NCBI RefSeq assembly: GCF_020075705.1
Contig: NZ_JAIQUM010000024.1
Coordinates: 1-64,000, forward strand
Length of the DNA stretch: 64,000 bases
Direction: 5' to 3'
DNA from: Metabacillus rhizolycopersici
Lineage (GTDB): Bacteria > Bacillota > Bacilli > Bacillales > Bacillaceae
The notes beneath the pieces were generated by a model. The model ran no database searches, was not told the origin of the DNA, and saw only the letters and a program-made list of their open reading frames with translations. Position 1 is the stretch's first letter, and each line of letters starts with the position of its first letter. The translations under genes and the position numbers were made by a program. This document shows positions 13,231 to 37,239 of this stretch, piece by piece.

Positions 13231-13346
13231 TCTGGGAAATAAGTCGAAATGTGTAAAACATAAATAAGCTGAAAAATCGGATTTTTTTCTGAAATAGGTT
13301 GACCAATAGGAATAATTTTATTACAATGTAAACAATAACTTAATAT

Positions 13347-13418
13347 GACTTGTTAGCTCAGTGGGAGAGCACTTCCTTGACAGGGAAGGGGTCGTGGGTT
13401 CGAATCCCTCACAGGTCA
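13347..13418 (+). tRNA. tRNA-Val(GAC)
   Basis: A 72-base cloverleaf: acceptor GACTTGT pairs with ACAGGTC, the D arm is TTAGCTCAGTGGGAGAGC, the anticodon arm CTTCC-TTGACAG-GGAAG carries anticodon GAC, and the T arm is GTGGGTTCGAATCCCTC. No CCA is encoded. Its 3' part is the integration site of the element that follows, and the crossover leaves the tRNA intact. Confidence 0.93.
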
Positions 13419-13420
13419 TC
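13374..13420 (+). other. attL-type core: tRNA-Val 3' end
   Basis: These 47 bases recur at 32773-32819 with a single difference (T at 13392 is G at 32791), and in degraded form at 38830-38874. The integrase gene lies 130 bases away with its C-terminus facing the tRNA, the usual layout for tRNA-targeting elements. Confidence 0.85.
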
Positions 13421-13548
13421 GAAACAAAATAGTGTATGAATCTTGTTGTATCAAGGTTTGTGGGGCAGAGAGACCATTTGTAGAGAGTAGCTACAGATGG
13501 TCTTTTTTTGTGAAATTAAGTGTTCTGGTCACAGACTGGTCACACAGC

Positions 13549-14670
13549 CTATTTTCTACCTGCATAGATGAATTGGTCGAATATCGTTGCTGCTTCTTTT
13601 TGCATTGTTGGTAATGAATGACTATAACGATCTAGCGTAATCTTCGTACTAGCATGTCCTAGACGTTCAGAGATTACTTTCACGTTCACACCTAATTGGA
13701 GCATGAGTGAAGCATGTGTATGCCGTAAATCATGAAATCGAATCTTAGGGACATTTGCTTTTTTAATAAAATTGTTAAAGCTACGTCGAAGGTTACTAGG
13801 ATTAATAGGAGTACCCTCTAATGAAGCGTTCACTAGATTCATGTTCTGATAACCGTTGCCAAGCTTTAAACGTTGCTCAGCTTGTACTGCCTTATGCTTC
13901 TTTAGTAAACGAATAACCGTATCAGAAAGCTCGATTACACGGCGGCTAGAGGTAGTCTTTGTGGATTCTTGAATCTTCTTCGAGCCATTAATAATTGTAT
14001 GACGTATCTTAATGACTTTCTTCTCAAAATCAATATCATCCCATAATAAGCCTATTAGTTCCCCTTGACGCATACCAGTATTTAGAGCTAATACATAAAT
14101 TAACTCATAGGGAGTTTCCTCAGCTGTTTTAAGAAACATTTGGACTTGCTCCTGTGTCCAGATGTTCATTTCTTGAGGCTTATGTTTAGGTGTAGAAATA
14201 GCTAAAACAATATTATGTGGCACAACTTGTAGCTTAACTGCTTGATTAAAAATGTTTACTAATACCTTATGAACATTCTGAATTGTAGCCGCACTACGTT
14301 TTTCTTCATGAAGTGTAGTGTACAGCAGAGAAATATGCAGAGGCTTAAGGTTTGCAATTAGCATATGCCCTAGAAAAGGTCGAATATGATTTTCAATAGT
14401 ATAGTAGTATTTTTGTTGTGTGTTTATGTTCACTGTACGCTTTTTATTTTCAATATAAATATCTAGAAATTCATTCAGTGTCATCTTAGAAGGCTCTATA
14501 TATGTGCCTTCGTTTACTTGATTAAGTGCTTTTGTCAGAGCAGCTTGTGCTTCCTTCTTCGTTTTAAAGCCACGTTTCTTCTTTTGTTTACGCTTTCCTG
14601 AAATTGGATCTTGATAGCCAAATACATAGTACCAGTTATTGTTTTCTTTCTTAATAGAACCTTGTGCCAT
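13549..14670 (-). CDS. int: tyrosine-type site-specific integrase
   Basis: 373 residues. The N-terminal arm-binding domain (WYYVFGYQDPISGKRKQKKK) is followed by a SAM-like core-binding domain (about residues 60-150) and a catalytic domain with LNTGMRQGELIGLLWDD (Arg), HDLRHTHASLMLQLG (His-x-x-Arg), the GHAS segment and the nucleophile in LDRYSH. It belongs to the phage/ICE integrase class that recombines into tRNA genes. The ATG follows AGGAGG. It sits 3' of tRNA-Val(GAC), with the excisionase-like gene just upstream, and is expected to drive insertion and excision of the 19.4-kb element. Confidence 0.95.
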   Translation of the reverse strand: MAQGSIKKENNNWYYVFGYQDPISGKRKQKKKRGFKTKKEAQAALTKALNQVNEGTYIEPSKMTLNEFLDIYIENKKRTVNINTQQKYYYTIENHIRPFLGHMLIANLKPLHISLLYTTLHEEKRSAATIQNVHKVLVNIFNQAVKLQVVPHNIVLAISTPKHKPQEMNIWTQEQVQMFLKTAEETPYELIYVLALNTGMRQGELIGLLWDDIDFEKKVIKIRHTIINGSKKIQESTKTTSSRRVIELSDTVIRLLKKHKAVQAEQRLKLGNGYQNMNLVNASLEGTPINPSNLRRSFNNFIKKANVPKIRFHDLRHTHASLMLQLGVNVKVISERLGHASTKITLDRYSHSLPTMQKEAATIFDQFIYAGRK

Positions 14671-14692
14671 TGGGAGTCCTCCTGATCAAATA

Positions 14693-14872
14693 TTATCCGT
14701 TTAACCATCTAAGAAATGATTGTTTTGATATTTTGATTCGACGACCGACCCTTACACTGTGAAAAACATTTGAGTGTACTAACTCATATGCTTGCATTCT
14801 TCCTATTTGTAAAATAGCCTGTACATCTTTCACATCCAATAGTTCTGGATATTGAAGTTCTAAATGTGTCAT
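14693..14872 (-). CDS. excisionase-like small HTH protein (59 aa)
   Basis: This 59-codon ORF ends 22 bases before the integrase start and reads in the same direction. The product has the MerR/Xis-type pattern LLDVKDVQAILQIGRMQAYELV, then VRVGRRIKISKQSFLRWLN, typical of helix-turn-helix excisionases with a C-terminal wing. Size and position both fit a recombination directionality factor. The start is an ATG behind GGTAGGAATTAGAG, a modest site. Confidence 0.8.
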   Translation of the reverse strand: MTHLELQYPELLDVKDVQAILQIGRMQAYELVHSNVFHSVRVGRRIKISKQSFLRWLNG

Positions 14873-15734
14873 CTCTAATTCCTACCTTTATTATAAATGT
14901 TTTTTGACAATGTTGTATCCTTTAGTGTCTTATAATGTAAGTGTACGAGGATTAAAGATTTTATACAAAGTCGCTCAGAACCGATCTCACATGAAATACA
15001 GCAAATTTGAGGTTCGAAATGTTATTACATTAAGGGAGGACATCTACTAATCTTAGAAATGCTCTACTTTCCTGCGAAATGCCCATATAAAGTGGAATTT
15101 TTTATAAAAATTTTCTGGAGGTAGCACCTTGTATGGTAAAGGAGATTAGTGAAGTTCGATGCCCCACCCCTTAGGTGTGGATAAACCGTTCTACACTTTG
15201 CCCAAAAATAAAAGAACAGACTATTTAAATGAACAGTCTGTGCTATATAAACATGGGGTAACCATGTAAGATTATTAGATTGGCATAAAAAAATTGCTAG
15301 CGTAGGTAAGTTATCAAATTACTTACCATTAAAAGATAAAGAGCCACCATGAATAACGATGACTCTTTATTATTTATTAAAGTAAAAACTATTTCTTACA
15401 ATTTAAGAAAATAAGATTTACTTTTTATTTTTTACGAAAATATCTTTTATTTCTTATTTTTTTATGAAAATAGTAAATATCTTTTATATTTAGTGAAAAT
15501 ATTATTTAAAACAAAAAGGAGATAATAAAGAATATCTCCTTTTTGTTTTAAAAATGGATTAACAGTGCCATCTTTTTGATTTAATATCGCTTTAATAGAC
15601 TTATTTGTACTAGATAAATAGTTTTAAGGTACAATATAAAAATTTGACCATAAACAAAGTATTGAAAATTCAGCTACATTATTAATGAAATTGAAAAGCA
15701 GACAGGGAAACGTCATTGCAGATGAAGTATATAG
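14873..15734. other. non-coding region inside the island
   Basis: No convincing gene. GTTCGATGCCCCACCCCTTA at 15154 resembles the right end of IS200/IS605 elements but no tnpA or tnpB remains. A/T-rich degenerate repeats (TTTTATTTCTTA-type) fill 15400-15500. A symmetric hairpin of AAACAAAAAGGAGATA and TATCTCCTTTTTGTTT occupies about 15509-15551 and could terminate transcription on either strand. Confidence 0.5.
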
Positions 15735-16352
15735 CTCCTAGTCTGGGGGAGTCTTAACGATGGTAAAGCTGCGATAGCTCTTTTAAAAGTTATTCAAGAA
15801 CGATTGCCATCTCTAGTTATTGAATTTGGAACATTAGACGCTGGGTATGATTATGTTCCAATTTACGAACAAATCTATCGGATGAAAGCTCAATCTGTCA
15901 TTGCTTATAACAAAAAGAATGAACCTGACCCTATTGGTTTTGATAAATATTTCGCTCCGACATGTGTACGTGAACATTCATATCTATATGATAGTTTTGA
16001 TGAAAAGTATGAAACATTAAAGTACTCACGACCTAAAGAATGTCGTGATTGCCCTTTAGCCAAGGATTCCCTTTGCCAAAAGGTATATAAAGTAAAAATC
16101 ACAACTAACTTACGACGTTATACTGCACCAGCTCGTGGTTCAAAGAAATGGAAAGACATTTATAAGCAAAGGACCGCAGTCGAACGAGTTAATGCCTATT
16201 TGAAGGAGTATTTCCAATTGAACCAGGTCCGTTATCGAACAGGAAAATGCGCAAAGGTCCACTTTGATTTGGTTCATCTTGTTTATAATGCATCAAAGTT
16301 AGCGTGTGATCGACTATTAGTACAAGCCAAATCACTACATCACGCAGCATAA
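15735..16352 (+). pseudogene. transposase remnant, IS1182-like C-terminal half
   Basis: The reading frame is open from 15735 (in-frame stop just before) to 16352 and carries only the C-terminal part of a DDE transposase: LVIEFGTLDAGYDY, the cysteine cluster ECRDCPLAKDSLC, RRYTAPARGSKKW, the RTAVERVNAY motif with the catalytic Glu, and KVHFDLVHLVYNASKL. The N-terminal half is missing or unreadable. A second remnant of a related transposase lies at 42406-43087. I infer the IS1182 family from the Cys cluster and the C-terminal motif; not tested by search. Confidence 0.75.
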
Positions 16353-16910
16353 TTTAAAAACAGAACAAAATCAATATTCGGTAAGTCTAACAATTTTTTA
16401 AAAACTACATTATGAAATTGATTCAATTAAACTTAAAATATAATACACCCAAAAATTTAAAAGAATAAATTCCAAAAATTTTAATATAAGTTAAGTGTAA
16501 ATTTTGATAAATTAAGTACACAACTATAAAATCGTTATTAAAAGCTCGGATGAAAACATTACATTCCTATACCAATCGATTATTCACATATTGTAACTCG
16601 TAAAGATAAATATATTTCTTATTTTTAAGGTAGTATATTATCTATCATCAGGAGCGACTACTTACAGTCGTTCTTTTTAAGTATTTTTTAAATATTTACA
16701 TTCTTGCATCTGATTTAGATAATGAATACTCTAATCTATGGAATCTAAATCATATGGTAAGATTGTAAAGTCTGTGATAAATTGGAAAAATTAAAACCTG
16801 ACTAATAAAATAGTGTTTTCAAATAAAATAAGTTAGTAATAAATATGGATAGAAAGTTTTTATTTTTCACTTCAATAAATTGTAAGTGTTTTCATCACCT
16901 GGGAGGCTAT
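16353..16910. other. A/T-rich intergenic region before the sensor kinase
   Basis: No gene seen. A hairpin of GAGCGACT and AGTCGTTC followed by TTTTT (about 16650-16680) looks like an intrinsic terminator. The promoter of the kinase gene could not be fixed. Confidence 0.4.
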
Positions 16911-18671
16911 ATGTTTTTTTCATTACGAAATCGATTATTTATTATTTTTACTTTACTTCTAACGATCCCCTTTCTGATTCTATCCATTATCATTCCAAAT
17001 TGGTTTACATCAATTATGGAAGAACAAACGAAGGATGCAACTGTCGAAATGATGGAGCAGTATTCACTTTATATTGATTCAATCACTTCACAAGCAGAAG
17101 ATCTTGGGAAACAGGTTCTTGTTAATCGAACAACTCAACAATGGTTGAAGTCAGAAATGGATCATTCAGAAACACCAAGTGACCAGCGTTTATTAATAAA
17201 AAATCAGCTGAAAATGCAGTTATCATCTATGATGATTAACAATTCTAAATCCATGTCTATCTCTGTCTTTCTTAATGATGGTACCGGGACTTGGGGGTAT
17301 CTTCCAACATTACAGGAAACAGAGTGGTTCATAGATTTTTCTGAAAATAATCAGCGGTGGGTGAAAACTCATGATGACACAATTGCAACGAATATAAATA
17401 GTTATCTTCTGCCACTTTTTGATCTGCTTACACTTGATTTATCTGGAGTGATTAAAGTTAATTTCCCCTCTTCATTGCTCGAAACAGCATTGAGTAAAAT
17501 CAAACTTGGTGAAAATGGTCGTGTTTATTTAGTAGATAGAAATGGATCGAATGTATTGTCCGAGAAGATACAGACTCCGGATTATGTATTGAATAAAAGT
17601 TTAGAAGAAATATCAAATGTTCAACAAAATAAAGGCCTAATTGAAACCAATTACGATAATGAGGAATACCTTGTATTTTTTCAAAAATTAAAAATCGGTG
17701 ATTGGGTTCTGGTTAGTGAGATTACAAAGTCTGAATTGTTCTCAAAAATTAATACATTGCAAAAGAACTTATTCTTTATCAGTGCTCTAATTTTTATATT
17801 AACAATTCTTGCGTCTTATTTTCTTTCCTTTACAATTGTTAGGCCTTTAGGAAAGCTAACGAAAGCAATGAAATTTATTGAACGTGGAGACTTTTCTGGA
17901 GCAAAAGGTTTTATGCCGACAATTAAATCTTATAACGACGAAGTAGGATATGCTATAAAAGTATTTGATCATACAATCGACAAATTAAATTTCTTAATTA
18001 AAACAGAATACGAAGCAAATATTCGAAGAAAAGATGCAGAATATAAAGCCTTATTATTACAAATTAATCCTCACTTTTTAAACAATACACTTGAAATCAT
18101 CGGGGGATTAGCGGTCCAGGGGAAAAATAAAGAGGTTATGAATGTAAGTATTTATTTAGGGAGAATGATGAGGTATTCCCTAAGTACCAAAAGTGATGTC
18201 GTGAGATTAGGTGAAGAAATAGCTTATATACGAAATTTCACAGATATTTTAAAACTTAGGTATGAAGATTCGATTAGTATAGAAATTGAAGAAGATCAAG
18301 AAACAAAACATCTGCCAATTATTAAGTTTATAATACAGCCACTTGTTGAAAACGCAGTCAAATATAGTTTTATCAAAAAACATTTTGCTGAACTTAAAAT
18401 AAAAACAGAAAAAAGTGGAGAAAAAATATTTATTATCGTTGAAGATAATGGAATAGGGATGTCTGAAAAGGTTATTAAAGACTTACTGGATACAGAAATA
18501 AATAATGAAGCAGGAAATGTGTTAGAAAGTAAAGGGACCAGTATTGGACTTAAAAATGTACTAGGCCGTTTGATGTTATATTACGGTGAAAATTTCTCAT
18601 ATGACATTCAATCTGAAAAGGGTAAAGGCACTAGAATCACATTGTGTATAAAGCGAGATTCCCATTGGTAG
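16911..18671 (+). CDS. YesM-type sensor histidine kinase
   Basis: 586 residues from the ATG at 16911, which follows GGGAGG. Layout: membrane segment at about 8-30, an extracytoplasmic sensing domain to about 285, a second membrane segment at about 290-310, a HAMP linker, then the His_kinase box LQINPHFLNNTLE (His near residue 388) and an ATP-binding domain with IQPLVENAVKYSF and DNGIGMSE. This is the class that pairs with YesN-type AraC response regulators to sense extracellular sugars. The partner regulator lies 125 bases downstream. In this island it probably senses fructans or sucrose. Confidence 0.92.
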   Translation: MFFSLRNRLFIIFTLLLTIPFLILSIIIPNWFTSIMEEQTKDATVEMMEQYSLYIDSITSQAEDLGKQVLVNRTTQQWLKSEMDHSETPSDQRLLIKNQLKMQLSSMMINNSKSMSISVFLNDGTGTWGYLPTLQETEWFIDFSENNQRWVKTHDDTIATNINSYLLPLFDLLTLDLSGVIKVNFPSSLLETALSKIKLGENGRVYLVDRNGSNVLSEKIQTPDYVLNKSLEEISNVQQNKGLIETNYDNEEYLVFFQKLKIGDWVLVSEITKSELFSKINTLQKNLFFISALIFILTILASYFLSFTIVRPLGKLTKAMKFIERGDFSGAKGFMPTIKSYNDEVGYAIKVFDHTIDKLNFLIKTEYEANIRRKDAEYKALLLQINPHFLNNTLEIIGGLAVQGKNKEVMNVSIYLGRMMRYSLSTKSDVVRLGEEIAYIRNFTDILKLRYEDSISIEIEEDQETKHLPIIKFIIQPLVENAVKYSFIKKHFAELKIKTEKSGEKIFIIVEDNGIGMSEKVIKDLLDTEINNEAGNVLESKGTSIGLKNVLGRLMLYYGENFSYDIQSEKGKGTRITLCIKRDSHW

Positions 18672-18795
18672 AGTCTTACTTATGGTTAGCTTAATATATC
18701 AAGTTTTTAGGGGGTTATCCCACTATCGCTTCCCAAACCACTCAAGCTTAAGTTGGATGTTGTAAAGCGTGTTTAAGTTACTGGAGGGGATATAC

Positions 18796-20388
18796 ATGTT
18801 GAACGTAATCATTGCAGATGATGAAATACAAATTCGTAAAGGTTTACGAATGAAAATTGAGTGGGAAGAAGAAGGTTTTCAAATTGTTGAAGAATCATCC
18901 AATGGACAAGAAACACTAGACTTGTTAAAAAAGCTGGATGTAGATGTTGTCATTACAGATGTAAGAATGCCGATCATGGACGGCATCGAATTTGTAAAAC
19001 AATGTCATCATGAGCATTCGAATGTTAAAGTAATTGTCTTATCTGGGTATTCCGATTTTGATTATGTAAGATCATCGCTGGTTGAAGGGGTGAAAGACTA
19101 CCTTTTAAAACCAGTTGCTCCTGATGAACTAGTAGAAGCTTTAAAAAGAATTAAATTAGATATAGAGGAAGAAAGGAAAAGAAAAATTGAAACTGATCAA
19201 ATGAAACGGCTTGTTCACAATCAGTTAGAAGAAATGCGGGGGCAGTTTTTACTCCACCTAGTTAAGGAGGAATGGCCCGAACTAACCGTTACAATTGAGA
19301 GACTTCAGCAATTACAGTTAGAAGATTTAGCAAATGAAAACGTACATGTTCAATTTGTAACGGTGGAAGTAAGAGGAACAGATCGAGACCCTAATAAAGT
19401 AAAGGAACTGTGGCTTCCTTTTAGAATGCTTTGCAAAGAAATAGCTAAAGAGCACGGAGGAACTTATTCCTTTTATGATGCAAGTTATGCGAATATGATT
19501 CACTTTATCCATAGAGTAGATTCTAATCAATTAGATACTAAATCTACATTGATTAAAAAAGTCCAACGACATGTAAAAGAATTCTTAAACTTGGAGACAG
19601 TGATAGGTATTGGGAAGATTATTACTGGTCTTACAGAATTTAAAAATGGTTATATTTCAGCGTTGCTTTCTTGGAGTCAAAGTCAATTAAGCTCGCAATC
19701 ACAGGTGATAGAGGGGACAATTAATAAAGACGTGTTTGAGTTTTCAGCTGATGTTGAAAAGAAATTGATTAACACAATTGAAAATGAAAATCATGAAGCT
19801 TTTAAGAGCAACATTTATTCAATTTTGGGAGGAATGAATAATCAATCCATTATGTCCTTTTCTATCATTGCTAATCGAGTTTTATTTTTGTTAGGTTCCC
19901 TAGCAAGAAAGTACGATATTGATACGATCGAAGTAAATAATATGATATGGAGTTGCCAACAGAGTATATGGGAGCTTAACTCTCAAAATAGGGTGATTGA
20001 GCAGCTCATCAATTTGGCACAGTCAATCATTGAAAAGGTACATGAAGACCGATCTTCTACGAATGGTGTGGCAATCGTAGAAAATGTACGTCGTTATTTG
20101 GACCAGCATTATGCAAGTGAAATTTCTCTTACGACACTAGCAGATCAATTTCATATTAATAGTGCTTATTTATCTGAAATTTTCAAAAATCATATTGGTC
20201 AAAACTTTAGTGATTACCTAATCAGCTTGCGAATGAATCATGCTCAAGCATTATTAAAAGATAAACAACTTAAAATAATCGACGTAGCTCACTTAGTGGG
20301 TTTTTCAAACTCGGGTTATTTTAGTACAGTATTTAAAAAACAAATTGGCCAAACTCCTGTTGAATTTCGTAACTCCACAGATTCATGA
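18796..20388 (+). CDS. YesN-type response regulator with AraC DNA-binding domain
   Basis: 530 residues. Receiver domain at 1-120 with the phosphoacceptor Asp near residue 55 in ITDVRMPIMDG and the conserved Lys in DYLLKPVAP. A long middle region of about 280 residues is followed by two AraC helix-turn-helix units (about 435-530: LTTLADQFHINSAYLSEIFK and IIDVAHLVGFSNSGYFSTVFK). The ATG follows CTGGAGGGG. It should activate the neighbouring sugar transport genes when phosphorylated by the kinase at 16911. Confidence 0.93.
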   Translation: MLNVIIADDEIQIRKGLRMKIEWEEEGFQIVEESSNGQETLDLLKKLDVDVVITDVRMPIMDGIEFVKQCHHEHSNVKVIVLSGYSDFDYVRSSLVEGVKDYLLKPVAPDELVEALKRIKLDIEEERKRKIETDQMKRLVHNQLEEMRGQFLLHLVKEEWPELTVTIERLQQLQLEDLANENVHVQFVTVEVRGTDRDPNKVKELWLPFRMLCKEIAKEHGGTYSFYDASYANMIHFIHRVDSNQLDTKSTLIKKVQRHVKEFLNLETVIGIGKIITGLTEFKNGYISALLSWSQSQLSSQSQVIEGTINKDVFEFSADVEKKLINTIENENHEAFKSNIYSILGGMNNQSIMSFSIIANRVLFLLGSLARKYDIDTIEVNNMIWSCQQSIWELNSQNRVIEQLINLAQSIIEKVHEDRSSTNGVAIVENVRRYLDQHYASEISLTTLADQFHINSAYLSEIFKNHIGQNFSDYLISLRMNHAQALLKDKQLKIIDVAHLVGFSNSGYFSTVFKKQIGQTPVEFRNSTDS

Positions 20389-20421
20389 AAAAAGAGCGTA
20401 ATTTGGAAGGTGGGGGTTCAG

Positions 20422-21750
20422 ATGAAAAAATGGTTAATGGTCTTTATAGTAGTGATTCTATTTGGTATGGCAGGGTTTGCATGGTCTTACTTCACCCATT
20501 CAAGCGAACGTACAGATAAAAGTGATAAAAGGAATGTTGGGGAACAAATAGAGCTGACATTTTTGCGGAATTTAGGTAACCCTGCGTTTAATAAGGCATA
20601 CGAAGAATTAGTTGTTGCCTTTGAGGCAGCTCATCCCAATATTAAAATTAATATGCAATCCATACATTGGGCTCATGAATATGAGTTAAGGTTACGTACA
20701 GAATTGGCTGCAGGAAACCATCCTGATATCATGGCAATTGATAGTCCTAACTTGGCTCTTTATGCGAATGCGGGATTCCTATTATCTATAGATTCATATA
20801 TGAAAGAGGAAGGTAATATTGATGATATACCCGAACAGACTTTAAATGGATTAACCTTTGAGAGTGAAATCCTTCTTGCACCTATCGTAGAATCTAGTAT
20901 TGCTTTATATTACAATAAGCATCTGTTTAAGGAGGCAGGAATCCCATATCCATCAGAAGATCCAAATAAATCTATGACATGGGATCAGGTACTAGAAATT
21001 GCCAAAAAAATAAGCAATCCGGAAAAAGGGATATATGGAATTGACCCGGCTCAAGGATTTAGTGAGGGAGAAGGACCAGCTTATTTTAAAATGCCAATCT
21101 TGTGGCAGTTCGGAGCAGATGTACTAAGTCCAGATGGGACAACAGCAGATGGTTACTTAAATTCTGAAGAAGCATTGGAAGCTTTGCAATTTTATCAAGA
21201 TTTGTATTTTAAACATCGTGTAGCTACGGTTGAATTGCCTCCAGCTTCTTTTGAAACAGGTAGGCTTGCGATGACTATATTAGGTTCTTGGCACTTATCA
21301 GAATTGCAAAGTGTCCCAGATTTTGATTTAGGTGAAGATTTTGGGGTTGCTCCATTGCCTAAGGGAGAATATCAAGTTGCTCCTCACGGAGGTTGGGCAT
21401 TGGGGATTTCTTCAAAGACTAAATATCCTAATGAAGCTTGGGAATTCGTTAAATTTGTTACAAGTTATGAGGGCTCTAAAAAATTTGTTGAAATTACAGG
21501 TGATTTGCCTGCTAGATACTCAGTGGTTAGCGATTTTCCTGATCTTAATGAGTACCCCAAAAATATCTTTGTTCAACAAGGACAAAAGTACTCCAAGAAC
21601 CGACCAGTTACACCTGTCTATCCGGTTGTAAGTGAAGCTATTAAGATATTATTTGAGGATGTTGGCATTGGCGGGAAAAATGTAAAGGCTTCAGCGACAG
21701 AAGCTGTTGAGAAAATAGATAATAGTTTAAACGAGATTCAAAATCCATAA
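20422..21750 (+). CDS. extracellular sugar-binding protein, membrane-anchored
   Basis: 442 residues of the ABC type-1 solute-binding family (UgpB/MalE-like): LTFLRNLGNPAFNKAYEELV, HPDIMAIDSPNLALYANAG, and GGWALGISSKTKYPNEAWEFVKF are typical. The N-terminal hydrophobic segment (about residues 4-24) has no lipobox cysteine, so it is either an uncleaved anchor or a normal signal peptide. The gene follows the response regulator by 33 bases and is closed by its own terminator, so it belongs with the two-component pair rather than with the permeases; a role as a sensor co-receptor is an inference. Confidence 0.85.
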   Translation: MKKWLMVFIVVILFGMAGFAWSYFTHSSERTDKSDKRNVGEQIELTFLRNLGNPAFNKAYEELVVAFEAAHPNIKINMQSIHWAHEYELRLRTELAAGNHPDIMAIDSPNLALYANAGFLLSIDSYMKEEGNIDDIPEQTLNGLTFESEILLAPIVESSIALYYNKHLFKEAGIPYPSEDPNKSMTWDQVLEIAKKISNPEKGIYGIDPAQGFSEGEGPAYFKMPILWQFGADVLSPDGTTADGYLNSEEALEALQFYQDLYFKHRVATVELPPASFETGRLAMTILGSWHLSELQSVPDFDLGEDFGVAPLPKGEYQVAPHGGWALGISSKTKYPNEAWEFVKFVTSYEGSKKFVEITGDLPARYSVVSDFPDLNEYPKNIFVQQGQKYSKNRPVTPVYPVVSEAIKILFEDVGIGGKNVKASATEAVEKIDNSLNEIQNP

Positions 21751-21755
21751 GATGT

Positions 21756-21792
21756 TTTATCCTCTAGTTTTTATTAGGGGATTTTTTTTTTC
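21756..21792 (+). terminator. intrinsic terminator
   Basis: ATCCTCTAG and CTAG/TAGGGGAT pairing around a short loop, followed by nine T residues. It separates the sensor block from the transport operon. Confidence 0.75.
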
Positions 21793-21918
21793 GAAATTAT
21801 AAAAAATCATCCGAAAAAATCAAATATTAACAACCGAAAATTTTGAAATATTACAAGTTTCGACTTTGTTATAGTAGAACTCACAGAGAGAGAACAAAAC
21901 AATGAGAGGGGCAAAAAA

Positions 21919-21954
21919 ATGAATGAAAAAACGTTTTACATTAAATGTAAGTAA
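21919..21954 (+). CDS. possible leader peptide (11 aa)
   Basis: ATG preceded by GAGAGGGGCAAAAAA opens an 11-codon frame (MNEKTFYIKCK) that stops just before the cre site and 51 bases before the permease start. The good ribosome binding site suggests translation; the role is unknown and it may be chance. Confidence 0.3.
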   Translation: MNEKTFYIKCK

Positions 21955-21957
21955 ATA

Positions 21958-21971
21958 TGTAATCGTTATCA
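21958..21971 (+). promoter_or_regulatory. cre site (CcpA operator)
   Basis: TGTAATCGTTATCA matches the Bacillus consensus TGWNANCGNTNWCA at every defined position. It lies 34 bases before the first permease start, so CcpA would block elongation or initiation of the sugar transport operon when preferred sugars are present. Confidence 0.8.
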
Positions 21972-22005
21972 ACAGTAATTATATTCATATAAGGAGGTTA
22001 ATAGA

Positions 22006-22971: not shown

Positions 22972-22986
22972 GAAAGGAGGAGAACA

Positions 22987-23874: not shown

Positions 23875-23893
23875 AAAAAGATGAGGGGTTAAT

Positions 23894-25510: not shown

Positions 25511-25618
25511 TAGTTTTTGTCAATATATAATCTGTGGCTGTACAGATTTAAGTATAGTACAGCCTCGTTCTATTTAATAAGTTTATACATTTAATAGTCT
25601 ATAAAAAAAGGAGAATGA

Positions 25619-27103
25619 ATGATGAACAAAATATATAATGAAAAGCACCGCCTTCAATTTCATTTTTCACCGGAAAAAAAGTGGATGAATGATCCCAATG
25701 GGATGGTCTTTTTTAAGGATGAATATCATTTATTTTATCAATACCATCCATTTGGTACTACTTGGGGACCTATGCACTGGGGGCATGCAGTCAGCAAGGA
25801 TATGATTCAATGGGAACATCTGCCGATCGCGCTTTATCCTGATGAGCATGGAGAGATTTTTTCCGGAAGTGCAGTAGTTGATTGGAACAATACCTCGGGA
25901 TTTTTTGATGATGAGCCTGGCTTAGTGGCTATATATACAAGTGCTGATAATTATCCTAACTCTGATCGACCTCGCCAGCGACAATGCCTCGCATACAGCA
26001 AGGACAATGGTAGAACCTGGAGAACATATGAAAGAAATCCAGTTCTTTCAGATGTTAACATTACGGACTACCGGGATCCAAAAGTGTTTTGGCATGAAGA
26101 AACGAGTAAATGGATAATGATGTTGGCAACAGGTCAATCCATAAGTATTTATACATCTCCTAACCTAAAAGAGTGGGAATTTGCCAGTGAATTTGGGAAT
26201 AATGCGGGTTCACATGATGGGGTCTGGGAATGCCCTGATTTGTTTAAATTACCTGTAGATGGTGACGATACTAATCAAAAATGGATCATGTTGGTTAGTA
26301 TTGGAGATAATCCAAAATTTAAAGAAGGATCACGGACACAATATTTTGTCGGACAATTTGATGGTACTACTTTTTTAAATGATAATCCTGATGAACAAGT
26401 TCTATGGCTCGATTTTGGTCGTGATAATTATGCAGGTGTAAGTTGGTCTGATATCCCTGCACAAGACGGCAGAAGAATTTACATTGGATGGATGAGCAAT
26501 TGGCGATATGCCAACCAAGTCCCAACAGAAGAATGGCGAAGTGCGATGACATTGCCCAGAGAGCTGTCGCTTACTTCTAGCAAGGAAGGAAATCGTATAG
26601 TCCAGAAAATCATTTCCGAAATTGACTCCATTAGAAATCATACAGAAGTTACTCAGGAGCTTACAATTGAATCTGACAGCCCTGTAACTTTTAATTTGAC
26701 CAGTCCTTTAATGGAAGTGAATGTTAAGTTTGATAATAAGGATTCAAATTCATTTGGATTGATTTTTGAGAATTCTAAAAATGAAAGCATCATGATACAG
26801 TACGATACGGCAAGTGAAAAGCTAATGGTTGACCGGACGAAAGCTGGAGTCAATAGTTTCTCTGAATCCTTTGCTGCCTTACAGGAAACTGATCTGAAAA
26901 TGGAAGACGGCAAAATCAATCTGCAAATCTTTATGGACACATCTTCAATAGAAGTACTAGCCAATGGTGGAAAAGCAGTTTGCACAAGCTTACTCTTCCC
27001 GAAACATCTGTATGAGAGAATAATCATCTTCTCAAATAAAGGAACGACAAGGGTCGCTCCATTGAAGCTCACCGAACTGAATTCAGTATGGGGTAAGTAT
27101 TAG
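25619..27103 (+). CDS. glycoside hydrolase family 32 beta-fructosidase (levanase/sucrase type)
   Basis: 494 residues. Catalytic motifs are intact: nucleophile WMNDPNG near residue 22, the transition-state RDP in YRDPKVF, and the acid/base Glu in WECPDLF. The C-terminal beta-sandwich of GH32 follows from about residue 340. It hydrolyses beta-fructosyl bonds of sucrose, inulin or levan. No signal peptide is present, so it should act on oligosaccharides after import by the LplABC-like system upstream. Starts at an ATG-ATG pair after AAAAAGGAG; a sugar kinase gene follows. Confidence 0.93.
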   Translation: MMNKIYNEKHRLQFHFSPEKKWMNDPNGMVFFKDEYHLFYQYHPFGTTWGPMHWGHAVSKDMIQWEHLPIALYPDEHGEIFSGSAVVDWNNTSGFFDDEPGLVAIYTSADNYPNSDRPRQRQCLAYSKDNGRTWRTYERNPVLSDVNITDYRDPKVFWHEETSKWIMMLATGQSISIYTSPNLKEWEFASEFGNNAGSHDGVWECPDLFKLPVDGDDTNQKWIMLVSIGDNPKFKEGSRTQYFVGQFDGTTFLNDNPDEQVLWLDFGRDNYAGVSWSDIPAQDGRRIYIGWMSNWRYANQVPTEEWRSAMTLPRELSLTSSKEGNRIVQKIISEIDSIRNHTEVTQELTIESDSPVTFNLTSPLMEVNVKFDNKDSNSFGLIFENSKNESIMIQYDTASEKLMVDRTKAGVNSFSESFAALQETDLKMEDGKINLQIFMDTSSIEVLANGGKAVCTSLLFPKHLYERIIIFSNKGTTRVAPLKLTELNSVWGKY

Positions 27104-27189
27104 AAGCAATGCTCTGATCGGAACAATTGGGTTAGATCTTTGTTTTACCTCAATATAAAAGGGAAATCTATAAAGGTAGGTCGATTTAA

Positions 27190-28152
27190 GTGAAAAAAAA
27201 TTCATCAATTCTATGTATTGGAGAATTACTTATTGATTTTTTCTGTACAGATGTGGACATAGATTTAGTTCAAGGCCGAAATTTTCAAAAGCAGGCTGGA
27301 GGAGCACCAGCCAACGTCTGCGTAGCTATTATGAAATTAGGGGGCAATGCCCAATTTAGCGGTAAAGTCGGCAATGACCCGTTTGGCTATTTTTTAAAGA
27401 AAACCTTAGAAGATGCTAAGGTTGATACGTCATTACTTGTTCTAGATGATGCCCATCCAACCACGCTGGCGTTTGTTTCCTTAAAGGCTGATGGAGAGAG
27501 GGATTTCGTTTTCAATCGTGGTGCCGATGGATACTTAACAGAAGACGAATTGCATATAGATAAAATCATGAAGAACAATATTCTTCATTTTGGTTCTGCA
27601 ACCGCTCTATTGGAAAATCCTTTTCAATCCACATACCTAAACCTTATGAAGTTTGCAAAGGAAAGTGGGAAATTCATCTCCTTCGATCCCAATTTTAGGA
27701 TTGACCTTTGGAAAGAAAGACGTTGCGACTTCATAGATTTAGCTAAACAGGGAATTAGTATTGCTGATTTTGTAAAAGTGAGTGATGAAGAGTTACGAAT
27801 TATTTCAGGGGTTAATGATTTAAAAGAAGGAGTAGCTATCTTTCATCAAATCGGAGCGAAAGTTGTTTCTGTCACCTTAGGAAAAGAAGGAACGATGATT
27901 TCAAATGGGACAGAAATTGGAATTGTCCCGAGTGTTAAAGTCACTTCCATCGATTCTACTGGTGCTGGAGATGCCTTTGTTGGCGCAACCCTTTATCAGT
28001 TAGCCATGTCAGAATACCCGAAAACAGTATTAGTAGACTTCGACCAACTAAAAAAAATCATCTCCTTCAGCAATAAAGTAGGAGCATTGGTCTGTACAAA
28101 GGTTGGAGCAATCCCAGCACTGCCAACTAAAGAGGAAGTAAACAACATTTAA
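27190..28152 (+). CDS. PfkB-family sugar kinase, probable fructokinase
   Basis: 320 residues of the ribokinase/PfkB fold. The N-terminal signature is [16 protein letters not shown] and the C-terminal ATP/anion-hole motif is [11 protein letters not shown], with the catalytic Asp. Bacterial fructokinases of this type phosphorylate fructose at position 6. The start is a GTG after AAAGGTAGG. Position after the GH32 enzyme gives a complete route: import, hydrolysis, phosphorylation of fructose. Confidence 0.9.
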
Positions 28153-28209
28153 TAGATGAAACAGCCTTTCTTGATTAATTTTGTAAATAGAGGAAGGAAG
28201 ATAAAATCA

Positions 28210-28569
28210 ATGAAAAATACTGAGATTAAACAATAATATTATACGGAAAGATATCGTCCACAGTTTCACTTCTCTCCAGAAGCTAAATGGATGAATGATC
28301 CAAATGGAAGGGTATTTTATGAAGGAGAATACCACTTGTTTTATCAGTACCATCCAAATGGAACAACATGGGGACCAATGTATTGGGGACATGCTGTAAG
28401 CAAGGACTTTATCCGTTGGGAACACTTTCCAATTGGGCTAAGGCCTGATGAACATGGTATGATTTTTTCTGGAAGTGCTGTTGTGGACTGGAATGACACA
28501 TCTGGATTTTTTAATGGGAATTCAGGTTTAGTTGTAATTTTTGCTCATGCAGATACGTACCCCAAGTAA
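28210..28569 (+). pseudogene. truncated second GH32 gene
   Basis: Reading from the ATG at 28210, an in-frame TAA appears at codon 9; the frame then runs on through WMNDPNG to 28569 and stops with the N-terminal quarter only. It is closely similar to the GH32 enzyme at 25619 ([20 protein letters not shown]) but differs at many positions, so it is a paralogue rather than a fresh duplication. RDP and EC motifs are missing, so no activity is expected. Confidence 0.88.
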
Positions 28570-28711
28570 TGACTAAAAAAGAATTGAACTAAATAATTAT
28601 TGAATAAAATAGTGATGTGAGAAATTAATTTTTTACCAATCGTTTGTAATAATAATAAATTACAAAGTTTTAGTGGAGTTCTTAGTGTGAAGCAAATGAA
28701 CAGACCATTAA

Positions 28712-28755
28712 CAAAGCCTCATTTCCGTTGGAACAGGAATGGGGCTTTTAATAAT
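28712..28755 (+). terminator. intrinsic terminator
   Basis: AAAGCCTCATTTCC and GGAATGGGGCTTT form an imperfect stem followed by TTAAT. It closes the GH32/kinase block. Confidence 0.6.
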
Positions 28756-28857
28756 ATAAACAATAAGTCCACTTCGATTTAAATATTTTATGGAGATTTT
28801 GATATAAGAACGGGCTTGTTATGTGGAATTCTATCAAGAAAACTAGAGGAGGATTAA

Positions 28858-29781
28858 ATGTTGAATAAAGGCTTAAAAGTTCTTCTTATCATCTTTGTTA
28901 TTTCTACGATTTTAATAGGGTTTATATTTAAACCAGATGAAAAACCTAAAGTGGTTGTTGTTTTAAAAGAATTAGATACAGAGTATTGGCAATTTGTTAG
29001 AGCAGGAGTAGAAAGGGGATTTCGGGAATTTAATATAGATGGTGAAGTTATCGCACCTCGATTCGGATCAGCAAAATTACAGAACGCTTTGTTAAAAAAG
29101 GTTCTTAAAGAAAAACCAGATGTATTAGTTGTCTCTCCGTTTCTTTCATCTAATATTCCTATGTTAGCGCAGTTTGACAAAAAAAAAATTCCGGTATTGC
29201 TATTAGATACAGATTATCCTTGGGAAAATAAAACGTCTTATATTGGTACTAATAACCTGGAATTAGGGAGAAAAGCAGGGGCATTATTAGCTTCTAAACT
29301 ACAGCCAGGTGATAAAGTGGCCATCATTGCTGGAGGAGGTGACCGGGTAAAAGGAGCAAAAATTAGTTTAGAAGCTGCAGGGATCAATATCACAGTAGAA
29401 AAATTAGGATTAGAAAATGAAGCTAAGCCAGTAAAGGAAGCAATGGAAACGATATTGTGGGATTATCCTGACCTTAAAGGTGTGTTTGCCACAACTGACA
29501 TCATGGCAATAAATGCTTTTAAGGTCATTGAGGAACATGAATTGAAAATGCCAGTCATAGGTGCAGATGGAATAATTGAAATGATTGAGTTAATAGAAAA
29601 TGAAGAGTTACCTGGTACAGTAGCACAAAATCCCTTTGATATGGGGTATTTAAGCATTGAAGCAGCAATGAAAGTTATAAATGGAGAAAAAGTTGATAGA
29701 TTTATTGATAGTGATGTAGATTTTATCATCAAAGGTAATTCTAAACAGAGATTAGATTTTTTGGAAAATTTGTTGGAGTGA
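28858..29781 (+). CDS. membrane-anchored RbsB-type sugar-binding protein
   Basis: 307 residues of the periplasmic-binding protein type-1 fold (ribose/LacI-like): VVVVLKELDTEYWQFVRAGVERG, GTNNLELGRKAGALLA and GVFATTDIMAINAFKVIEE. One N-terminal hydrophobic segment (about 6-24) lacks a lipobox, so the protein may stay anchored. TTG start after AGGAGG. No permease or ATPase of the ribose type accompanies it. In Clostridium, anchored binding proteins of this type (XylFII) pass a sugar signal to LytS/YesM-like kinases; a similar role with the kinase at 16911 is an inference. Confidence 0.82.
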   Translation: MLNKGLKVLLIIFVISTILIGFIFKPDEKPKVVVVLKELDTEYWQFVRAGVERGFREFNIDGEVIAPRFGSAKLQNALLKKVLKEKPDVLVVSPFLSSNIPMLAQFDKKKIPVLLLDTDYPWENKTSYIGTNNLELGRKAGALLASKLQPGDKVAIIAGGGDRVKGAKISLEAAGINITVEKLGLENEAKPVKEAMETILWDYPDLKGVFATTDIMAINAFKVIEEHELKMPVIGADGIIEMIELIENEELPGTVAQNPFDMGYLSIEAAMKVINGEKVDRFIDSDVDFIIKGNSKQRLDFLENLLE

Positions 29782-30068
29782 AGTTTCGCCATTGGTCATT
29801 AATAAAGTTAAGAGATTTTTACTGGAAGCAACCAGGTTGGAGCAAGAATAAACATACAAGAGTTGCATATCCAGAAGATCTTGCTTTACTTCTTTTATGG
29901 CATCCTTATAATGAGAGCGCATATCATCATTACGAGATTCCGAACGTACACTATACGGTTGTCACGGTGGCAGGCAAATGGGCGCCCGGGGAGATGACAG
30001 CTGGGGTGCTGGCGTATACTCTGTGGAGTAAAGTTATGAATCACAAACCTGATACAATAAACGGTTAA
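29778..30068 (+). CDS. hypothetical ORF (96 aa), possible gene remnant
   Basis: The frame opens with a GTG that overlaps the stop of the binding protein by 4 bases. I do not recognise the product. Its second half (from about 29930) is visibly richer in G+C than its surroundings, for example GGGCGCCCGGGGAG, which suggests a different origin. No membrane segment or signal peptide. It may be the tail of a lost gene fused to flanking DNA. Confidence 0.35.
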   Translation: MKFRHWSLIKLRDFYWKQPGWSKNKHTRVAYPEDLALLLLWHPYNESAYHHYEIPNVHYTVVTVAGKWAPGEMTAGVLAYTLWSKVMNHKPDTING

Positions 30069-30095
30069 AGGCACTGAAGAATTGGGAGGATTTGT

Positions 30096-30269
30096 ATGAT
30101 CTCTACAGAGAGAGAGGAATTAGAATATAGGATCAATCAACAGAAAAAAGAATTGATCCAGATTGCTGGATTAACTGGTTTAAATAGCCCTAAGACTATT
30201 TGTTGCAGTCAGAAATTAGACCAACTCATCACGATTTATCAAAAACTTTCTAATAAAAAAAGAAGATAG
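30096..30269 (+). CDS. Spo0E-like aspartyl-phosphate phosphatase (57 aa)
   Basis: ATG after GGGAGGATTTGT opens a 57-codon frame. The product has the two-helix pattern of the Spo0E family with the signature SQKLDQLI near residues 39-46, where the acidic residue takes part in dephosphorylation of Spo0A-P. Such proteins delay sporulation. It lies within the tRNA-Val element, so the element could influence the developmental decision of its host; this is an inference. Confidence 0.82.
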   Translation: MISTEREELEYRINQQKKELIQIAGLTGLNSPKTICCSQKLDQLITIYQKLSNKKRR

Positions 30270-30613
30270 AAATATGTTATTGAATGACAATTTATTTCCA
30301 TTATTTTCGAAATTTATCTTCTTGTTACAATCAAAATTAAAGGACTTTATTGTTACTGCACATTTACGTCAGGTATGCTAGTGCAGTCAGTTCCATCATT
30401 AATCACCAAAGTAGAAATCCTTTTTGGTATGGATGATTTGTCATAAAAATTCTATAACAAGTTTTTAATGGATACATATAACAAAAACTTCTCAACATTA
30501 CTTCTGTTAACTTAATAGTAAAAACCTATTGGGGTATTTTTGTTTTTGGATATTACTATAATTAGAAGTATCCCATATGACTTTTTCAAAATATTGGAGT
30601 TAGTATAGTTTCA
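30270..30613. other. intergenic region without recognised gene
   Basis: A/T-rich, no frame with a ribosome binding site. It separates the Spo0E-like gene from the IS3-type element. Confidence 0.4.
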
Positions 30614-30667
30614 TGGACACGGTTTAGTTAACTCTCTATGATAATAATAAGAGAGGAAGTGTCCGGC

Positions 30668-30940
30668 ATGGAATCAAGAAACAAGCGTAAATATAACGAT
30701 GATTTTAAGAAAATGGTGGTGGAACTTTATCACACTGGTAGCTCGGTAAGTACGTTAAGCAGCGAATATGGCGTATCTGAAGTCACAATTTATAAATGGA
30801 TTAAAGCTCTGACTCCAGTGAATGGTGAGGAAAATGGTCTAACGCCACAGGACATAACTGAAATCCAAAAAGAGAATCTTCGAATGAAACAGGAAATTGA
30901 AATCTTAAAAAAGGCTATGGCCATATTCGCCAGAAAGTAA
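30668..30940 (+). CDS. IS3-family transposase OrfA
   Basis: 90 residues from the ATG at 30668. It carries the helix-turn-helix of the Tnp_8 family (KYNDDFKKMVVELYHTGSS, YGVSEVTIYKWIKAL) and a C-terminal leucine zipper-like helix (ENLRMKQEIEILKKAMAIF) used to join OrfB by programmed frameshifting. It appears intact although its partner is not. Confidence 0.88.
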   Translation: MESRNKRKYNDDFKKMVVELYHTGSSVSTLSSEYGVSEVTIYKWIKALTPVNGEENGLTPQDITEIQKENLRMKQEIEILKKAMAIFARK

Positions 30941-30960
30941 CCGATACCGAGCTATCAAAC

Positions 30961-31625
30961 ATGATTCACAATCAAAAAGAAGTGTTTCCCGTCCAGGTCA
31001 TGTGTGAAGTGCTGGACATGCCAAGAAGCACTTATTATCAGTCTTTGATTAAAACAGAATCAGCACGTGACCGAGAAAACCGATTGAGGCTCGTGAAAAC
31101 ATACTACAACAGGACTTTTCTACGTCCAAATTAAACGAAAAATGGGTGGCCGATATCACCTATATCCACACTTTACGAGATGGTTGGTGTTATTTAGCTA
31201 CGGTTTTAGATCTGTATTCTAAAAAAATCATCGGATATTCTTTCTCTCGTTCCATGACAACTGAACTTGTTTTACAGGCCTTAAACAATGCCGTTTCTAT
31301 CCAACAGTCGGGACCTGGCTTCTTTTTACATACGGACCTTGGCTCTCAATATACAAGTGAAGATTTTAGCCAAGCGCTTAAAGAACAGGAAATCATTCCA
31401 TCGTTTAGTCGCAAAGGCTGCCCGTACGATAACGCATGTATTGAATCTTTTCATGCCATTTTAAAGAAGGAAGAAGTCCATCACGTAACCTATTTAAATT
31501 TCGAATCAGCGAACGCAGCCTTGTTTCAGTTTATTGAAGGCTGGTATAATCGTCGACGTATTCACGGCCAATTAAACTTTCAGACGCCGCAAGAAGTCGA
31601 AGATCAGTTCTACCAATCTGCATGA
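30961..31625 (+). pseudogene. IS3-family transposase OrfB, internal deletion with frameshift
   Basis: The N-terminal part (MIHNQKEVFPVQVMCEVLDM, RDRENRLR) reads in one frame to a stop at about 31134. From about 31100 the remainder continues in another frame: ENILQQDFSTSKLNEKWVAD, then the DDE core (DITYI, HTDLGSQYTS, IESFHAILKKEE) to 31625. The segment that normally lies between RENRLR and the DDE domain is missing, about 100 codons by comparison with the family, and the junction shifts the frame. Confidence 0.85.
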
Positions 31626-31821
31626 AAAGTTAACTTATTTGTGTCCAAGATATTGACTCAGATCCAAAAGAGAACATATACATTGGAACGACAGAAGTGC
31701 AATAACAATTGCTTTATGTTTGATATGGACAACGAAATTATTAAAGCTTTAATCTAGAAGGAAATCTAAAACAAGGTCATTGCTGCACAGTACAAGGATA
31801 CTATTCAATAGAAAAATGATA

Positions 31822-31846
31822 TTCAACAATCGGGCGCGATTGTTAA
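31822..31846. repeat. palindrome with AATCGGGCGCGATT centre, copy 1
   Basis: ACAATCGG and GCGATTGT style arms; flanks pair as CAATC/GATTG. See the second copy at 32480. Confidence 0.6.
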
Positions 31847-31934
31847 ATAAACACGTTTGTCCAAAGTATCATATTAGCAAATGACTGCTCTTACAGTGGG
31901 GGTTGCGGCGATCCTTTTTATTATTATTTTGAGT

Positions 31935-32084
31935 TTACGGAAACAATAAAGAAGTACCAGTTTTATCAATCTTGTCTTCATCTAATTGAACATCATATTC
32001 AAAGAATTTTGTTGAAAGGTATTGTTTTTTTAAGGTTTGGACGAAACCAGAGTCATCCAGTGTTAGAGGTAAAGAAAAGAACAT
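31935..32084 (-). CDS. hypothetical small protein (49 aa)
   Basis: Open frame of 49 codons beginning MFFSLPLTLDDSGF, directly downstream of the 44-aa gene at 32100. The ribosome binding site is weak (ATGGGTTATA). Unrecognised; it may be real because of its position, but evidence is thin. Confidence 0.3.
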   Translation of the reverse strand: MFFSLPLTLDDSGFVQTLKKQYLSTKFFEYDVQLDEDKIDKTGTSLLFP

Positions 32085-32099
32085 TATAACCCATGTTGT

Positions 32100-32234
32100 T
32101 TAACTTGCCCATTGTTTCAGAACTTGTTCTTTTGCAATTTGATAAACTTCTTCTTTTGAATTGTTTTTGTTAGCTATTACATTGGTTTGATAAATTTTCC
32201 CCTTGAATGTTACGTTGATTGTATACATGTACAT
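32100..32234 (-). CDS. small stress-type protein, BA3454-like (44 aa)
   Basis: ATG behind AAGGAGAAATAACAAA. The 44-residue product begins MYMYTINVTFKGK, followed by YQTNVIANKNNSKEE and ends VLKQWAS. This agrees with my memory of the short BA3454 family of stress response proteins in Bacillus; the assignment is not tested. Too short for most automatic gene calls. Confidence 0.6.
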   Translation of the reverse strand: MYMYTINVTFKGKIYQTNVIANKNNSKEEVYQIAKEQVLKQWAS

Positions 32235-32479
32235 TTTGTTATTTCTCCTTCCATTATAGCTATATTATAAATGTGATTTTTAAAGTTCTGATGAATTTTA
32301 TGTAAAGGTTTATTAAGTTTTACACCTCTTGTAAAGTAATAATAATTCGCTGAAGATAAGGGGGATGATGGGTGTTTTTTCATGACCTATCTTGCTTATT
32401 ATTTTATTGGTTTATTACAAGAGGTTTGTAAGATAAAATTATGTTGGTTAAGCTTACCAGCTAATAGAAGTTATTTAGA

Positions 32480-32511
32480 TTATTCCAGAATCGGGCGCGA
32501 TTCTGGAATAA
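32480..32511. repeat. palindrome with AATCGGGCGCGATT centre, copy 2
   Basis: TTATTCCAGAATC and GATTCTGGAATAA are perfectly complementary arms around GGGCGC. The arms differ from copy 1 but remain paired. Confidence 0.7.
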
Positions 32512-32697
32512 CATAGGCGGAAACTGATCAAACCTTTTAGTGCCATAAAGACTTAAATGACTTTGATCAAATCTTTTATAAATCAACAAATTACTGTGAA
32601 TTTATATTAGGAAAATGGCATCCACAGTGGCATGCATTTGGCAACAAAATTAAATTAACAATCAATAATTAACAATTAATAAAAGAAACAAAAAACC

Positions 32698-32727
32698 TGC
32701 AAATCCCTTGATATATAAGGATTTGCA
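32698..32727. repeat. right-end palindrome of the first element
   Basis: TGCAAATCC and GGATTTGCA surround CTTGATATATAA. The same site with TGA/TCA arms lies at 38765-38794 before the degraded third att copy, so it marks the right end of this element family. Confidence 0.65.
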
Positions 32728-32772
32728 GATACTGTCGGTAACAATCAATTATTATAAATAACACAAGGCTCG

Positions 32773-32819
32773 TCCTTGACAGGGAAGGGGGCGTGGGTTC
32801 GAATCCCTCACAGGTCATC
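32773..32819 (+). other. attR-type core: duplicate of the tRNA-Val 3' end
   Basis: 47 bases identical to 13374-13420 except one position. Only the anticodon-loop-to-3' part is present and the upstream sequence (ACACAAGGCTCG) cannot complete a cloverleaf, so it is not a tRNA gene. It marks the far border of the 19.4-kb integrated element. Confidence 0.87.
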
Positions 32820-32895
32820 CAATTGAATTATCAAAGTTTATACAATATTCAATCAAAATAAAAGTCTTGTAGAACTTCACTCAAATTTTGATTGA

Positions 32896-32937
32896 AAAAC
32901 TCCGTTATTCTGAATTTCAGAATAACGGAGTTTTTTT
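32896..32937. terminator. strong bidirectional terminator
   Basis: AAACTCCGTTATTCTGAA and TTCAGAATAACGGAGTTT form an 18-bp stem with T run, just beyond the att copy. Confidence 0.85.
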
Positions 32938-33198
32938 ATTTTTCTGAAGTATTTTGATGAAAAGGAAAAGATAAAAAAAAGCCAGCCATACAAGCACAGA
33001 GCAGAGAAAATGACCAAGAAGGAATCTGCTAAAATGATTTACGAAAGGTTTATAGAGTTTAAAGGAAAGCAAAATCTTCGCTCAGCCACTTTTGTCACAG
33101 AATATTCACATTTTTATGAATAACATACGCTCTTTTTTCTTCATTTTTCTATATATAGTCTATGAAAAGTATTCTAAGAAGAAGGGCAGTGGTTGAAG

Positions 33199-34200: not shown

Positions 34201-34229
34201 TGAGTATTGCTTAGAGGTAAAGGGAGATA

Positions 34230-37235: not shown

Positions 37236-37239
37236 GTGA

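Follow-up and report, generated by a model that had tools for sequence, protein, structure and literature searches.

We analysed a 64,000-nucleotide stretch of Metabacillus rhizolycopersici DNA (contig NZ_JAIQUM010000024.1, positions 1 to 64,000; hereafter the window) that carried a probable composite island in the 3' end of a tRNA-Val(GAC) gene. This gene (13346-13420, plus strand) was intact and was the sole tRNA found in the window by ARAGORN. The 47 bp of its 3' end formed the left attachment (att) site, attL (13374-13420, plus strand), and recurred twice on the same strand. The second att copy, at 32773-32819, was identical at 46 of 47 positions, which confirmed the one-mismatch duplication reported by an earlier reading of the letters alone (the original prediction). 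The third copy, at 38829-38875, was absent from that account; it was degenerate, with 41/47 identical positions in an ungapped alignment. In 30 simulated 64-kb sequences, the best chance match to this 47-mer averaged 24.9 positions and reached 28 at most. Moreover, the two distal copies were preceded by the same sequence. Namely, the right end of the first segment of the island (element 1), at 32696-32776 on the plus strand, was repeated ahead of the third copy at 38763-38833 in a form 10 bases shorter. The repeat comprised 57 nt at 88% and 24 nt at 92% identity, with the 10-base gap between them in one copy, and an alignment of the element end plus att copies 2 and 3 had 104 identical columns out of 130. 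Two 31-nt repeats around ATCGGGCGCGAT (31820-31850 and 32481-32511, 84%) were also seen near the right end of element 1.

Adjoining the tRNA, on the minus strand, were a gene for a tyrosine integrase of 373 amino acids (13549-14670; Phage_integrase, 2.2e-29), with 96% amino acid identity to Metabacillus elymi, and one for an xis-like protein of 59 amino acids (14693-14872; HTH_17), whose score of 27.8 bits against TIGR01764 'excise' was just below the cut-off of 28.8. Both had been named in the original prediction and were recovered here by their Pfam matches. The integrase retained R, HxxR, H and Y motifs, which we take to be characteristic of such enzymes. Thus, a tyrosine integrase adjoined an intact tRNA and a displaced copy of the tRNA 3' end was located at the far boundary, as in other tRNA-targeted elements.

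Both the integrase and the transporter beside the tRNA had their closest relatives in Metabacillus G016 (92.9% for the transporter). The integration module common to both species spanned 13421-15169, where the likeness ended. DNA identity was 97.1% in the integrase, 96.9% in the stretch before it, 94.4% in xis and 93.9% in the next 297 bp, compared with 83.7-84.2% in three flanking transporter genes. The G016 element, of about 25 kb, was inserted at the same tRNA and had attL/attR copies, but its cargo included HsdM, HsdS and ParA-like genes and its right end was another one. Since the module was far more alike between the two species than the flanking genes while the cargo was different, the integration module and the cargo were separable and had separate histories. 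The pair provided a clean natural comparison, since near-identical integration modules occupied the same tRNA in both species although the cargo was unrelated. Only two other relatives of the integrase (47-51% identity) besides that of G016 were counted among 397 genomes of the order at a threshold of E 1e-110. The element did not correspond to a known plasmid, as none of the 14 matching plasmid records covered 80% of it. Likewise, a known phage was rejected, since the 3457 phage records that matched the integrase were all below 60% identity and 9 viral contigs reached at most 30%.

The principal cargo of element 1 was a series of consecutive plus-strand genes. They encoded a YesM-like sensor kinase (16845-18671; His_kinase and HATPase_c, with dCache below the cut-off), a YesN-like AraC-type response regulator (18769-20388), a sugar-binding protein, SBP1 (20410-21750), two ATP-binding cassette (ABC) permeases (22006-22971 and 22987-23874; these and the regulator were assigned by Pfam search), a FusA-like fructo-oligosaccharide-binding lipoprotein (23894-25510), a GH32 fructosidase (25619-27103) and a PfkB-family sugar kinase (27190-28152). 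Many relatives of SBP1 in JGI were named fructooligosaccharide binding proteins, and others were of the glycerol-3-phosphate type. The FusA-like protein matched Streptococcus pneumoniae FusA (PDB 5g5y) with 704 bits over 485 residues, and a related entry, 5g60, is the FusA-nystose complex (PMC5287374). Based on this homology, the genes are predicted to encode a FusABC-type importer that binds and imports fructo-oligosaccharides. The best PDB matches of the GH32 protein were exo-inulinases, and its best NCBIfam match, the sucrose-6-phosphate hydrolase family, was below the cut-off, as was the best NCBIfam match of the kinase, fructokinase. No signal peptide was seen by eye at the N-terminus of the GH32 protein. 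A GH32 with 98% identity to it (P0241) was encoded on a public contig of 184,015 bases.

The same strand also carried a second GH32 gene truncated to a 92-amino acid fragment (28291-28569), an RbsB-like binding protein (28858-29781; Peripla_BP_4) and a 57-amino acid Spo0E-like protein (30096-30269) with a Spo0E domain and an SQKLD motif; SQxLD we take to be a signature of Spo0E-like phosphatases. A transposase fragment (15804-16352; DDE_Tnp_1_6) and a remnant of an IS3-type insertion sequence (IS) in pieces (30638-31625) were also present. The RbsB-like gene had been considered as a LacI/CcpA-type regulator, a candidate that we rejected since no DNA-binding domain matched. The sensor pair, two binding proteins, two permeases, GH32, PfkB and Spo0E-like genes were thus positioned as originally described, but the system could not be called complete: no ABC ATPase was present among the 19 element-1 open reading frames (ORFs) scanned, the second GH32 was a fragment and there was no LacI. 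Similarly, the idea of a sporulation brake delivered jointly with sugar genes was not supported, as the Spo0E-like gene was outside the operon and near broken IS fragments. No relaxase or conjugation gene had a Pfam match in the 19 ORFs of element 1 and 4 of element 2, a scan from which most ORFs shorter than 90 amino acids were left out.

The segment between the second and the third att copies (element 2, 32820-38875) encoded a phage-type replisome organizer or DnaD-like helicase loader (33193-34200, plus strand), a LysR regulator (34431-35312, minus strand), a class-III aminotransferase (35898-37235, plus strand) and a sodium:solute symporter (37240-38646, plus strand). We found no integrase in it: none of 120 related integrases matched its DNA, and no transfer gene was present among its 4 long ORFs. 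With att copies on both sides and no detected integration or transfer genes, its sequence would classify it as a cis-mobilizable element (CIME).

To place the right boundary, seven congener sequences (following an uninterrupted tRNA in three cases, a second tRNA copy in one and a distal att copy in three) and three congener sequences 3' of the tRNA at occupied sites served as references for the sequence 3' of each copy, each comparison being scored against 500 shuffles that preserved base composition alone. The sequence after copy 3 resembled the seven congeners: 0/500 shuffles scored as high in five comparisons and 3/500 did so in the other two. Its scores against the occupied-site references were not exceptional (reached by 34 to 75 of 500 shuffles). 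For the sequence after copy 2, the scores were ordinary in all seven comparisons (177 to 470 of 500 shuffles as high) and none of the three occupied-site comparisons was clear (38, 43 and 325). The sequence 3' of the tRNA itself matched the element ends of G016 and of another congener, G018 (0/500 each), and 11/500 shuffles scored as high when it was compared with the sequence after the second copy in G018. Directly after copy 3 there was a strong hairpin with a T run (38877-38935, plus strand; -21.2 kcal/mol, z -6.7) that resembled the tRNA-Val terminators of congeners, and no such hairpin was present directly 3' of copy 2 (z -0.24). A hairpin was also present at element 1's own left end (z -5.7). 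Resumption of the chromosome at approximately 38876 is suggested chiefly by the sequence match and less by the hairpin taken by itself. Because terminator-like sequence followed copy 3 and not copy 2, position 32819 would be an internal att site, and we rejected it as the right end of the island. Accordingly, of the 19.4-kb element (13347..32819) proposed originally, the integrase-bearing element in tRNA-Val stood, but its right end was more likely at 38875. More generally, an island may extend past the closest repeat of the tRNA fragment, and comparing the 3' sequence of each copy with the terminators of relatives allows the boundary to be placed. Base composition was not distinctive, since G+C was 35% in the element and 37% and 35% outside it.

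Thus, we consider that a composite island of about 25.5 kb occupies the 3' end of tRNA-Val(GAC), with the integrase-bearing element 1 (13421-32819) followed by the integrase-less element 2 (32820-38875), and we assign this reading a probability of roughly 0.85. The older element would have integrated first and later been left without its integrase. The second element, with the tyrosine integrase and the xis-like gene, would then have entered the tRNA end ahead of the older one, the tRNA being restored each time. It was improbable in our view that 13421-38875 was a single 25.5-kb element whose internal att copy at 32773 arose by later recombination or duplication. The two right ends were alike, so one integrase family made both, and only one integrase was found, as a single element would have it. 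However, copy 2 differed little from the tRNA whereas copy 3 was more decayed, as expected if copy 3 was older, the same element end preceded each distal copy, and a comparable array of tRNA copies was present at the tRNA-Val of Peribacillus G003.

Several observations weighed against the composite island or its proposed limits. The left end of element 2 was unlike that of element 1, which made the history of element 2 uncertain, and the ORFs scanned in both elements had yielded no transfer gene. With respect to the boundary, the shuffles preserved base composition alone, the sequence 3' of the tRNA also matched the terminator of congener G009 (0/500 shuffles), and at 32895-32935, 76 nt after copy 2, there was an inverted repeat, perfect over 20 nt and with a T run; a terminator-like hairpin was therefore not exclusive to copy 3. 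The genes to the right of the island were not found beside the tRNA in the contexts examined. Neither an excised circle nor a strict same-species empty site was seen, the relatives compared being other species. Finally, the YesM, YesN and permease proteins were 77-85% identical to a cluster in G016 and were not obviously foreign.

It was quite conceivable, although we leaned the other way, that the mobility of the island belonged to the past and that the fructan cluster was now an ordinary chromosomal gene set in a fixed, decaying island. The broken IS elements, the truncated GH32 and the lack of transfer genes among the ORFs scanned would agree with this. On the other hand, the integrase and xis-like genes were full length with the integrase motifs kept, att was preserved at 46/47 positions and the integration module was 97% identical to that of another species. 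Excision and transfer of the element are inferred. Very improbable was the explanation that the repeat came from an unconnected duplication of a tRNA fragment, with the sugar cluster being native and at its normal place in the genus. FusA-like genes with at least 68% identity were indeed present in 13 of 21 Metabacillus genomes, and therefore the system was common. However, the cluster was beside the tRNA in none of 15 contexts, SBP1 and GH32 were apart from the Metabacillus copies, and the arrangement of int, xis and att was standard for an integrated element.

G016, G007 and G006 carried the same block of fructan genes in the same order elsewhere on their chromosomes, as did G020, but without PfkB in the stretch fetched. 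By gene, the window cargo was 68-85% identical to the G016 cluster. In the SBP1 and GH32 trees, the window proteins were separated from the Metabacillus copies, and GH32 was placed beside a Neobacillus protein. Constraining the window proteins with the Metabacillus copies was rejected by the approximately unbiased (AU) test, with p of 1e-4 for SBP1 and 2e-8 for GH32, where the control clade was weak (61/50). Each tree consisted of 23 rows hand-picked from 120 listed hits plus the genus copies, and the test sets were chosen after the trees had been seen. The tree tests covered SBP1 and GH32, with YesM, YesN, the permeases, the FusA-like protein and PfkB outside them. Judged from these sequences, the descent of SBP1 and GH32 departs from that of the host, and some of the cargo, at least, entered from outside the host lineage. 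A separate observation was that 6 of 7 proteins of the G016 and G007 fructan clusters (L152, L153) were 92-98% identical and YesM was 87% identical, compared with 81% for the transporter gene of the same two species. The chromosomal fructan cluster thus seemed to have moved between species as well.

The 15 contexts in relatives were those with the same transporter gene (10 from Metabacillus and 5 others, with 1.6-59 kb available after the tRNA); G024, where the tRNA was also near the transporter gene, was left out. Within the DNA available, none had the fructan cluster beside tRNA-Val, and only distant paralogues below 40% identity were present. Among 80 loci listed, there was likewise no cargo gene except a relative of the Peripla_BP_4 protein (62%, L018) and a PfkB at 32%. 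This absence supported the original prediction of an integrase-bearing element in tRNA-Val with fructan-type cargo. G009, G010 and G012 had the same left-flank gene, tRNA and terminator with no second tRNA copy; they were other species and their right-flank genes differed (1.6 kb was available in G009). Extra tRNA copies were found in 4 of the 10 Metabacillus contexts (G016, G007, G018 and G006), and the large ORFs of these elements were scanned in part. Besides the G016 element with the same integrase and HsdM, HsdS and ParA-like genes, G007 had an integrase that was 45% identical and three cargo ORFs without Pfam matches. In G018, a different integrase and SIR2-like, HNH and FRG proteins were followed by a second tRNA-Val, genes for potassium transport and a partial copy. 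G006 encoded yet another integrase, a DNA methylase and a type III restriction subunit. The Peribacillus-like G003 had an integrase and repeated tRNA fragments at tRNA-Val, together with DUF6079 and DNA-methylase genes. Thus, the load here was catabolic, whereas three of the other occupied sites examined (G016, G006 and G003) carried DNA methylase or restriction genes. In G006 (L123), the tRNA-Val beside the transporter gene was interrupted beyond the anticodon stem, and about 80 bp further began a complete tRNA-Val(GAC) of different sequence, adjoining another integrase; the G006 element may supply a replacement tRNA.

We offer tentatively, and as a rather unlikely generalization, that the tRNA-Val(GAC) slot of Metabacillus is an exchange port, where one integrase module swaps the HsdM/HsdS defence cargo of G016 for the fructan cargo and stacked remnants can be recaptured through their common att ends. 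In this case, niche genes and defence genes would compete for one chromosomal site.

As for the function of the cargo, YesM/YesN would sense the sugar, and the FusA-like protein and SBP1 with the two permeases would import short fructans or sucrose. A host MsmX-type ATPase may energise the importer, given that importers of Bacillus and Streptococcus that lack an ATPase of their own use MsmX or MsmK (PMC7658222). The cytoplasmic GH32 would then free fructose and PfkB would phosphorylate it. This order, with uptake first and cleavage inside, fits the FusA-like match, the exo-inulinase-like GH32 and the lack of a signal peptide visible by eye. A candidate catabolite-responsive element (cre) for CcpA was located at 21958-21971 (plus strand), upstream of the permease genes, and could switch the permease operon off via CcpA when better sugars are present. 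It was the only perfect cre-like site in element 1, with 0.08 expected; 6.7% of 300 simulations contained one or more. Matches with one mismatch numbered 19 in the window and 8.9 were expected; therefore, single weaker cre matches mean little. Of 4 orthologous clusters, 2 had a like site ahead of the permease, namely those of G016 and G007, which were near-copies of each other, and none was found there in G006 or in the G020 stretch fetched. The CcpA control claimed originally would depend on this one site.

The element is of a known type, a tRNA-targeted island, with precedents for both the tandem layout and mobile FusA-GH32 modules. As described for the Islander collection (PMC4383910), tRNA-targeting genomic islands likewise have a tyrosine integrase beside a restored tRNA and a displaced tRNA fragment at the far end; the difference was in cargo and host, nothing fundamental. 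Tandem islands with integrase-less members have also been described (PMC5704250 and, for the Dehalococcoides ssrA islands, PMC3146451). Such accretion or CIME arrays were similarly stacked in one tRNA or tmRNA site, with att copies between the members and no integrase in the distal one. In contrast to CIME arrays, neither element here had a conjugation or mobilisation gene among the ORFs scanned, and the Dehalococcoides islands use a serine recombinase rather than a tyrosine integrase. Of note here is one integrase with two unrelated cargoes at one tRNA, together with the corrected right boundary.

Mobile relatives of the cargo were found on plasmids. FusA-like genes were present on 53 plasmid records, of which 28 were predicted to be conjugative and 47 were from Enterococcus. 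The predicted conjugative plasmids pGeo12b (Geobacillus) and pTT39_p1 (Enterococcus faecium) encoded two permeases, a FusA-like protein, GH32 and a sugar kinase, but had LacI and a ROK protein in place of YesM/YesN and PfkB and were not in a tRNA. A Pseudalkalibacillus plasmid had a like set with GH32 in two pieces. In pTT39_p1 (L172), the fructo-oligosaccharide-type genes were between guaA and a set of integrase, DUF3173 and rep genes, which had the appearance of a further integrative element with cargo of this type. Loci for fructo-oligosaccharides that combine GH32 with a transporter have been described in several Firmicutes (PMC6952197), and CTnscr94 is mentioned in PMC11251922 as a sucrose conjugative transposon of Salmonella. 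It resembles the present element in mobile sucrose catabolism but is conjugative and has a Gram-negative host. CTnscr94 is inserted in a tRNA gene, and its scr genes are of the phosphotransferase system type. No element with the present content was found among the titles and abstract openings listed for open PMC papers, in agreement with the original prediction, which had, however, not considered the FusA-GH32 modules of conjugative plasmids.

A few further features were observed in the window. Transposase-like remnants at 15804-16429, in the island, and at 42406-43166, outside it and judged by eye, were each followed by a similar 54-nt stretch (72%). A Group II intron RNA match was located just right of the island (40772-40856, minus strand), and a SAM riboswitch was present at 6602-6850 on the plus strand.

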